Notes under the pieces: generated by a model
What the model saw: the letters and a program-made list of their open reading frames with translations, nothing else
Databases searched by the model: none
What the model was told of the DNA's origin: nothing
In this document: positions 39,263 through 51,100 of the stretch, one piece after another
How positions within the stretch are numbered: position 1 is the stretch's first letter
Layout of the letters: every line of letters begins with the position of its first letter
Program-made: the position numbers and the translations under genes
From: Cunninghamella blakesleeana
Lineage: Eukaryota > Mucoromycota > Mucoromycetes > Mucorales > Cunninghamellaceae
Direction of reading: 5' to 3'
DNA: 64,000 nucleotides
Assembly (NCBI GenBank): GCA_017871115.1
Contig: JAFCIZ010000005.1
Coordinates: forward strand, 496,001-560,000

Positions 39263-40342
39263 TTAAGCCTTCTTAGCAGCTTGAGCGGCCTTCTTAGCTT
39301 CCTTGGACTTGGCAATAGCGGCTTGACGAGCAGCAGCACGAGCATCAGGTTTTTGGTTACGCTTAGCACGGATATCTTCCCAAGTAGTACCAGCAATAGC
39401 ACGTTCGTGTTTAACGGTACGACGAGATCTCTTCTTGGCAACTTCTTCAGTTACACCCTTCTTGTTAAGACGACGGTAGATGGTGGTCCATCTGATCTTA
39501 CGGGGGTTCAAACGTTGGAGGAAGTAAGATTCGGCCTTACCATTGATGAAACGGAAAGTCTATTAAAAAATAAAATAAAAATAATATATAAATATATATT
39601 GATCAATGATTTGATTAGGTGTTCTTTTTTTTTTTTATTATTATTATTTAGATTTATCCTATTTATTTTATATATCTACAATTTTTATATACACAGTATA
39701 TGATGATGACTTTTTATATCACACTCTTTTTTTTGCAAGTTGATCGACGTTCTTTTAAATATATTCTCAATTGTTCCTTAATAAATTCTAGTACACTATA
39801 TTTCCATTTGATTATATATACATATATCCAATATAATTTTTAATGCTGTTTTTCGTAATATTCTTCTTCCCCAATAAATATTTTTTAATATCCAATCATT
39901 ATGCCCTTTTTTACATCTTATTGCTTTATACATATACATATACATATATCTATATATATATAATATTTTATATGATACATACTCTAATAAAATAAAAATA
40001 GTAAAATAAAAATTAATTTTTCAGTTTTTTCTTCATATGCAAAATGTAGTATTCAATATTATCATTTTTATTTTTATTTTACCTGTTATCAACACGAACG
40101 TAAGTCTTACCCTTAGCAGGGTAGATTTTGTATCCAGAGAAAGAACAAATTTCGAGCCTATTATATTATTTAAAGAAAAAATATGATATCAATAATTGAA
40201 TATGATGCATAGAGTAACCCATATTTATTTTTTAAAATAACATCTTTTATCGTTTTCTATTTCTTTTATTTTAAAAGGATGGATGGATTGAAGTATATCA
40301 ATAATGGATGGATGGGTGAGTGGATGGATGAACTTACTTCAT
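39263..40342 (-). CDS. RPL24: 60S ribosomal protein eL24, with candidate 1-nt exon
   Basis: Exons 40342-40338 (ATGAA), 40157-40083, 39983 (single base A) and 39559-39263 give 125 residues. The sequence starts MKLEICSFSGYKIYPAKGKT and continues YVRVDNR-TFRFINGKAESY, NPRKIRWTTIYRRLNKKG, VTEEVAKKRSRRTVKHERAI. This is unmistakable eL24, which contacts the 40S through bridge eB13 in the large subunit. After exon 2 (phase AG) the conserved TFRF frame needs exactly one more base. A base flanked by TTATTAG and GTATGT supplies it and makes the Arg expected from relatives. The C-terminus is about 30 residues shorter than yeast or human eL24. The first intron lies straight after the start codon, common for ribosomal protein genes. 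Confidence 0.9.
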
Positions 40343-40561: not shown

Positions 40562-40792
40562 ATGTCGGATAAACCAGCAAAAAAAGGAAAATTATTATTT
40601 AAAGGCGACAAAAAAGAAAAGTAATATATACCATTAAATGATATTCAACATTATATTTAATAATAATCATGAACAATAATAGTAATACATAGTTTATTCT
40701 ATATAGAAAAAGAAAAAGAAAGCACCGTGACGAGGATGAACGCGATAAAGCTGAATTTACACAAGAAGGTTAGATATATAGTTTTATTAATG

Positions 40793-49652: not shown

Positions 49653-51100
49653 AAATTTAAATATATTATTAAGAAATATAATAGTATAAAAAATTAAAAA
49701 GTGAAAAAAAGGTGGAGTAAAAAAAAATTTGCTCCAAAGATATACCAAAAATAAAAAAAAATCGGGATTTAAATTTTCAAAAAAAAATAAAGTTAAACCG
49801 GAATGAAGATAAAAGTAAGGAACGATCGAATATTTTATTATTGTATTATTAAAAATAAACGAAAAAGCTACATAATGATCCATGATATATGCTTAGCAAG
49901 GTTTACGAAAAAAAAAAATGAAATTGTGACGTTAATTGTGATTTTGAAGAGAAAAACAATAAAAAAATGATCATGACCAACATTATAGTTTTCCAAGTAT
50001 GGAAATAAGGAAGAAATTTATCCTGAAATTTTGAGTCATTGCAAATTTTTTCTGTGTTCCGTCTAACGCCGAAATATTTTTGATGATTAATATTGTTTAT
50101 GATAGAAGTCTCTTGTTTCCTTTTCTAATATTACTATTGCTATTATTGTTCCTATTAAATTTTAATATATTATAAATATATTTATATTTATATGTATTTA
50201 TATAGAGAACAATCATATTTAATAAATGATGTTATTTAATAATACTATGATTGTATACCTATTTATTTATTTATTTATTTATTATTTACTCGCCTTTTTA
50301 TTTATATTTTCAATACAAAGAGATCATCATCTTTCACTTTATTACAAACCTTACACTCCCACGTGGATGGTGACGATGATGTAACACCTTTTTTTATTAT
50401 TTTCGATTTATTGTACCTCGGAATTTACCGATTGTATTCCAATAATTTACAAAATGAAATGGTTCATTTAATGATCTAGTAAGTACAATAGAGAAAATCA
50501 CAAGGCATAGCATTGAAAGAGTATGTCTACAATCCCGACAGATTACATAATTTATAAATAGTTTATTTTAAAAATAAAGGAAATAAAAATAAAAAACAGA
50601 ATATATGTAAACTATACATACTCTATAATTAGAATATATATTTTATTTATAAATTATTCCAATACGTATAAAAGGTTCAATAATTATATACTCTAGTAAA
50701 AAAAAGTTAATATATACCTCTATATAATATAAAAAAAACAACAGATGATATTAGAATGAATATCCTATATTGGAAATTTTTCATTTTTATTTTTCATTTT
50801 CATTTTTTTAATTAAATCGAATTATATTAAATTTTAAATAAAAGCAAGCGCAATGTCTTTAGTTTAAAGTATGAGCGATATTATTAGTTAATCAATATAT
50901 AGGTGTAGCACTTTTTTTTTAAAAAAAAAAAAAATGGTCGTCGAGGTACTTGTAAAATATTAACAGAGTATATAATAAAAACCCTTTTTAATAAATTTTA
51001 AAATTCAGACCAAGGCATCTGACCAAACATTAAAATTTGTGGAGGCATTTTTTTTTTTTTTTTTTTAGTCTCTTTTTTTCCCAACCTTTTCTTTAAAAGA
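49384..51100. other. long intergenic region, divergent genes
   Basis: About 1.7 kb between divergent starts. It includes a TG/CA microsatellite (49587-49648), an ATTT repeat (50262-50286) and a poly(T)-poly(A) junction at 50911-50934. A CCCACGTGG palindrome sits at about 50358-50366 (E-box core CACGTG). The open frame 49542-49883 is a translation of the microsatellite. No gene seen. Confidence 0.45.
49587..49648. repeat. TG-rich microsatellite
   Basis: TGTGTATGTGTGAGTATG passes into a pure GT run at about 49615-49648. It lies about 200-260 bp upstream of the 49383 start. Confidence 0.85.

Follow-up and report, generated by a model that had tools for sequence, protein, structure and literature searches.

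How does a gene encode a complete ribosomal protein eL24 when its recognizable exons cannot be joined in frame? The question is raised by a locus of Cunninghamella blakesleeana in a stretch of 64,000 nucleotides (hereafter the window), where the eL24 gene occupies positions 40342-39263 of the minus strand and a gap of 523 nt separates exon 2 from the last exon. An earlier note on this DNA had claimed that the end of exon 2 (AG) and the start of the last exon (ACT) are one base short of each other and that joining them directly breaks the frame; a coordinate check bore out the former and confirmed the latter. The last exon is in phase 0 and begins ACT-TTC-CGT after TTAATAG. Direct reading of the DNA revealed that exactly one base is required for the in-frame join of the neighbouring exons in both eL24 copies of the genome. 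The explanation that we favor, with a probability of about 0.93, is that the eL24 gene of this Cunninghamella carries a constitutive one-nucleotide exon, the A at 39983, flanked by ordinary spliceosomal introns, one of 99 nt and the other of 423 nt (Table 1).

Structure of the eL24 gene

Addition of one base results in a complete eL24 protein of 125 residues, in which the A at 39983 would make Arg 27. The protein contains the full Ribosomal_L24e domain (Pfam PF01246, 104.9 bits, 1-66/66), its PDB eL24 match is collinear over residues 1-125, and there is no gap at the junction in the three PDB eL24 alignments displayed. It was found to be 100% identical to entry P0001 of Cunninghamella echinulata, which has Arg at the junction, and the RLP24 protein of this genome is likewise 100% identical to the C. 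echinulata entry P0121, while the remaining entries named C. echinulata are less alike (P0007, 94%; P0177, 97%).

Table 1. Features of the eL24 gene in the window, in transcriptional order.
Feature	Position	Strand	Basis
eL24 exon 1, coding part ATGAA	40338..40342	-	join yields MKLEIC..., Pfam PF01246
eL24 intron 1, GTAAGT...ATAATAG	40158..40337	-	sequence reading
eL24 exon 2, phase-2 end GAT-AAC-AG before GTAAAA	40083..40157	-	sequence reading
Putative intron 2a, 99 nt, GTAAAA...TATTAG	39984..40082	-	splice sites of the kind found in 19 reference introns
Candidate one-nucleotide exon A, completing AGA (Arg)	39983..39983	-	second copy and Mucorales predicted proteins
Putative intron 2b, 423 nt, GTATGT...TAATAG	39560..39982	-	position equals that of the RLP24 phase-0 intron
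Last eL24 exon, TFRFING...AAKKA, stop TAA	39263..39559	-	sequence reading

Every in-frame single intron with GT-AG or GC-AG ends was tested, provided that it measured at least 30 nt, had its donor in exon 2 or in the gap and left a product of at least 105 residues. Six such solutions were obtained for the window copy and two for the second copy, and the full protein was not restored by any single GT/GC-AG intron, the best product being four residues short. In the window the longest product has 121 residues (donor GTTGAT, score -1.0), followed by one of 119 (GTTCGT, 1.4); in the second copy the sole join giving more than 113 residues yields 119 (GTCCGA, 3.5).

Some further features of the locus and its sequence were observed. 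The coding part of exon 1 (40338-40342) consists of five bases only, and an odd N-terminus is present in many public models, including those of Mortierellales. On the plus strand, at 40562-40622 and approximately 220 bases from the eL24 start, a divergent ATG with a short lysine-rich frame, MSDKPAKKGKLLFKGDKK, was noticed by eye and is possibly the first exon of a gene with a common promoter region. A decayed piece of the last eL24 exon (L010, G000:C5:143619-143715) matches it at 84% over 97 nt and resembles what is left of a pseudogene. No hits were obtained when the window was scanned with Rfam and for tRNA genes, the latter on the bacterial code.

Candidate bases and the second eL24 copy

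The gap contains four AGNGT sites, which could supply A at 39983, T at 39795, A at 39725 or T at 39723. Scored against a reference of 19 introns, the site at 39983 is the best (10.3), followed by 39795 (6.9), 39723 (6.7) and 39725 (4.0). The earlier note had preferred 39983 and listed the T at 39795 and a T near 39723 as alternatives; both are present and score lower, but the list was incomplete, given that the A at 39725 also completes Arg, albeit with the donor GTGTGA. The A at 39983 has TTATTAG upstream and GTATGTAT downstream.

The splice model was built from 16 introns of ubiquitin-conjugating, proteasome and RLP24 genes, obtained from 20 exon pairs after four pairs without a solution had been dropped, and from three introns added by hand, namely the first introns of both eL24 copies and a second RLP24 intron. 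Selection relied on an iterated score whose seeds were GTAAGT/GTATGT-like donors and TAG acceptors. Among these reference introns GTA donors were found in 19/19 and TAG acceptors in 17/19, and all four introns flanking the one-base candidates match, a consensus that is partly built in because GTA and TAG sites had seeded the selection score. A TAG acceptor and a GTA donor, the usual kind for this genome, flank the base in both eL24 copies. Intron lengths would be 99 and 423 nt for the window copy, against 141 and 165 nt for the other copy, compared with 92-263 nt for the 16 reference introns, every one of which is exceeded by intron 2b. A YTRAY-like branch motif lies no more than 60 nt from the acceptor in all four introns, which is weak evidence in AT-rich DNA.

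Taken alone, the window locus is weak evidence, because its donor GTATGT is middling (4.3 vs. a reference range of 2.9-8.2 in a small set), 8 of the 214 AGNGT sites in the window (both strands, 39983 included) score at least as high as 39983, and the word AGNGTA is common by chance, arising in 1520 of 5000 randomisations of the gap that resampled neighbouring-base frequencies rather than shuffling exactly. A recursive splicing site is a zero-length exon, with AG directly followed by GT; at 39983, as at position 1668 of the second locus, one base stands between AG and GT.

The second eL24 copy is located on contig C1 (L009, C1:4113.8-4114.6 kb) and has the same exon phases, with a gap of 307 nt. 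The two copies differ in one residue and in 42 nucleotides over 126 codons, with 40 of these differences falling on third positions. The sole AGNGT of the second gap is TAG-A-GTACGTAT, with the base at L009:1668, and it outscores all 214 AGNGT sites of the window. Over the 12-mer TAG-A-GTAYGTAT the gaps match at 11/12 positions, in the only placement reaching at least 9/12 (next best 8/12), and an 11/12 match to it was reached in 2 of 5000 randomised gaps. Within 15 bases on either side of the site 14 of 31 positions agree between the copies, 11 of them inside the 12-mer, and among the matches listed no word longer than nine bases was seen in both gaps beyond simple AT runs and T-rich sequence leading up to the last exon. 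Conservation between the copies is confined to the splice sites. The site is kept in this copy of the same genome despite otherwise dissimilar introns.

The pattern TAGAGTAYGTAT, composed after both copies had been seen, has 18 matches in the 31.9 Mb and 12 contigs of the genome (both strands), while the backwards pattern has six. Two of the 18 are the eL24 sites, and a quick look using open frames of at least 70 codons found none of the remaining 16 clearly between frames needing one base. Another TAGAGTATGTAT is present within the window on the minus strand at 50614-50625, where the DNA is AT-rich and shows no obvious exons that it could connect.

Predicted proteins of other species and rival explanations

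The eL24 paralogue RLP24 provides a control. In this genome one intron, of phase 0, interrupts it at the corresponding position (DSK|TFRF), and this junction is exact in 48 of 50 Mucorales and Umbelopsidales models, the two inexact ones (P0177 and P0212) both being without the part before the junction. The RLP24 rows are the best 120 of 5355 matches, while the eL24 rows were drawn from the best 120 of 403 matches and the best 120 of 1235. Each row represents a 90%-identity cluster, with related strains and gene copies counted separately, which makes Fisher tests on these counts overstate their independence, and proteins without a species name (P0025, P0032, P0246, P0150, P0208 and others) were left out of the counts. 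For Mortierellales 15 of the 16 listed rows were counted, Podila P0248 being left out. The order of each row is what we take it to be from the species name, Umbelopsidales and C. echinulata alone having been looked up.

Among the predicted eL24 proteins the junction is exact in 19/59 for Mucorales, 0/6 for Umbelopsidales and 15/15 for Mortierellales; some exact models may stem from transcripts or homology. The 40 inexact Mucorales models comprise 9 without six residues (of the KTY|TFRF type), 12 with extra residues, 7 otherwise altered and 12 classed as having no exon 2 frame, one of which (P0034) in fact has exon 2 and loses four residues. The six-residue loss is also found in 2/6 Umbelopsidales models. 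A model from Thamnocephalis sphaerospora (P0260), a species that we take to belong to Zoopagales, shows a six-residue loss as well (KTY|SFRL), and the frame gap may extend outside Mucoromycotina or this model may simply be wrong.

Extra residues after Asp-Ser occur in 14 eL24 models, i.e., the 12 with an insert together with P0069 and P0111. Eight of these (P0017, P0021, P0022, P0031, P0039, P0060, P0069 and P0111) continue with R-V-R, R-V-C or R-V-S, and they span six species in five genera: Absidia glauca, Mucor fragilis, M. circinelloides (two), Rhizopus stolonifer (two), Rhizomucor pusillus and Lichtheimia ornata. A Val behind Arg needs one base followed by GTN, and these residues would correspond to AGR followed by GTA-CGT, GTA-TGT or GTA-AGT, as if a one-base exon had been read through its donor. 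Read-through of the first donor gives AGG and a codon beginning with T, a pattern that fits P0015 (R-Y-V-P) and P0059 (R-Y-A-Q), while P0016, P0019, P0033 and P0072 fit neither; P0072 reads S-V-L, is compatible with a pyrimidine one-base exon and was left uncounted. In Rhizopus arrhizus P0269 (DSR-LSVSST, i.e., R-L-S-V-S-S-T) the residues are those expected if ACTTTCCGTTTC (ACTTTCC) followed the AG directly and were read in a frame shifted by one base.

The eight models therefore point to a probable AG-R-GTANGT site in other species, and the predicted proteins suggest that a one-base exon with the same exon phases is present in other Mucorales. Orthologous DNA of relatives was not encountered in scans of genome contigs and viral contigs. 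Evidence that is weak for the single locus becomes strong with the second copy and the gene models of relatives. The proposal that the A at 39983 is a one-base exon is supported by this copy and by Mucorales gene models that decode to the same layout.

One long non-canonical intron, either GT...TA before GACT or TA...AG after CAGG, would give AGG-ACT (Arg-Thr) and an identical protein. The letters permit it in both copies, because a G follows exon 2 and a G precedes the last exon, and the Arg of the exact public models is compatible with AGG from such an intron as well as with AGA from the one-base exon. However, the TA acceptor scores -7 and the TA donors -5.7 and -10.5 under a model trained on GT-AG introns only, and a non-canonical intron leaves unexplained both the TAG-A-GTAYGTAT kept between otherwise dissimilar introns and the R-V-R/C/S of the eight models from other species. 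We consider it highly improbable.

A true protein that is shorter by six residues (donor TAC|GTTCGT) or by four (CGT|GTTGAT) and is produced with one canonical intron is very unlikely. In both copies the loss of six residues preserves the frame and leaves 119 residues; it recurs in the Mucorales and Umbelopsidales models counted above, and the four-residue loss recurs in P0034. But all 15 Mortierellales models, the 19 exact models from Mucorales and the three displayed PDB eL24 alignments retain these six positions. Moreover, GTTCGT (1.4) and GTTGAT (-1.0) fall below the weakest of the 19 reference donors (2.9), and GTCCGA of the second copy exceeds it at 3.5, yet all 19 references have GTA.

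Homopolymers and AT-rich runs nearby could have favored a sequencing error in which the assembly lost one base at a junction, but the second copy, on a different contig, is also short by one base and many predicted proteins of other species fail at the same place, so this explanation has a negligible chance of being correct. Equally hard to credit is a direct exon join with a ribosomal slip of -1 at AAC-AGA-CTT: slipping after AGA would yield the right residues, but synthesis of a major ribosomal protein would hinge on it, ACAGACT holds no slippery heptamer, and the conserved AG-A-GT would be left unexplained. Finally, the letters of both copies allow a [D1,2] stwintron, in which an inner GTAAAA...TTAGAG leaves G beside TATGT and the outer donor GTATGT is rebuilt; it was rejected on frame, exon 2 becoming one base shorter (AACA + ACT) and the frame two bases short.

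Comparison with known one-base exons and possible origin

The earlier note had cited a plant APC11 gene as a known case of the very rarely documented single-nucleotide exon, which is too narrow: according to the available text of the respective reports, VPS55 (PMC8831610) and Fusarium CYP621A (PMC12940212) are also in print. The latter is described there as the first fungal case, with an identical candidate exon in 24/24 genes examined and RNA reads in support from two species (PMC12940212). As far as that text goes, eL24 resembles CYP621A in being a fungal nuclear gene in which a base between AG and GT is needed to join incompatible phases within a conserved motif, but CYP621A is a P450 gene whose exon is a G at the second position of a Gly codon (PMC12940212), whereas the eL24 exon would be an A at the third codon position. 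Furthermore, CYP621A was reported from Fusarium (PMC12940212), while the signs for eL24 come from two Mucoromycotina orders and were read from DNA and predicted proteins.

From the portions available, the APC11 exon is constitutive, conserved and missed by annotation, as the eL24 exon would be (Arabidopsis, PMC4674806; other land plants, PMC8831610). Successive removal of the flanking introns was proposed for APC11 (PMC4674806), as it is for eL24. APC11, in contrast, is a plant cell-cycle gene that was tested with reporter constructs (PMC4674806); the eL24 exon is predicted from the letters of the genome and from predicted proteins. VPS55 of land plants is similar in the deep conservation of a one-base exon and its splice sites, in having been overlooked in annotations and in the existence of a duplicate gene (PMC8831610). 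In the available text, however, only one clade of copies has the exon in flowering plants, whereas both eL24 copies keep it, and Selaginella and non-vascular plants transcribe VPS55 with and without the exon (PMC8831610). One-base exons between fungal mitochondrial introns (PMC12308204) and in a placozoan mitochondrial gene are also in print, to the extent that these sources are available. Fungal stwintrons, in the descriptions available, are comparable in that two introns at almost one position need successive removal, but there an inner intron splits an outer splice element, whereas in eL24 one coding base would stand between two complete introns. No report of a one-base exon in eL24 or in Mucorales was found in a literature search that had most subscription papers outside its scope. 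The eL24 one-base exon would stand out by the kind of gene that carries it and by how old it seems to be.

Under the one-base exon, the A at 39983 would join the AG of exon 2 to form AGA, the codon of Arg 27, and introns 2a and 2b would be spliced out successively through intron definition, since an acceptor and a donor one base apart could hardly be occupied together. Either order is possible, because exon 2 also ends in AG and AGA precedes the second donor before and after removal of 2a. Intron 2b would be the older one, given that RLP24 has an intron at that phase-0 position, and the one-base exon probably arose before the split of Mucorales and Umbelopsidales. A new intron may have been inserted one base ahead of the existing one; alternatively, a base may have been lost at the old donor (e.g., AGG|GT to AG|GT) and compensated by a one-base exon within the intron. 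Base loss at an old donor followed by rescue is also the route suggested for CYP621A in the available text (PMC12940212).

We regard as doubtful the further idea that the ancient exon was kept in this highly expressed housekeeping gene because difficult stepwise splicing is useful, with skipping giving a frameshifted mRNA and inclusion acting as a possible dosage switch. Under the favored explanation, a ribosomal protein gene found across all eukaryotes would contain a one-base exon, and apparently a very old one; the explanation also offers a reason why 46 of 65 Mucorales and Umbelopsidales eL24 models are inexact at the same place. For studying how exons too small for two-sided binding are defined, eL24 would be a naturally recurring substrate, with RLP24 as a built-in one-intron control.
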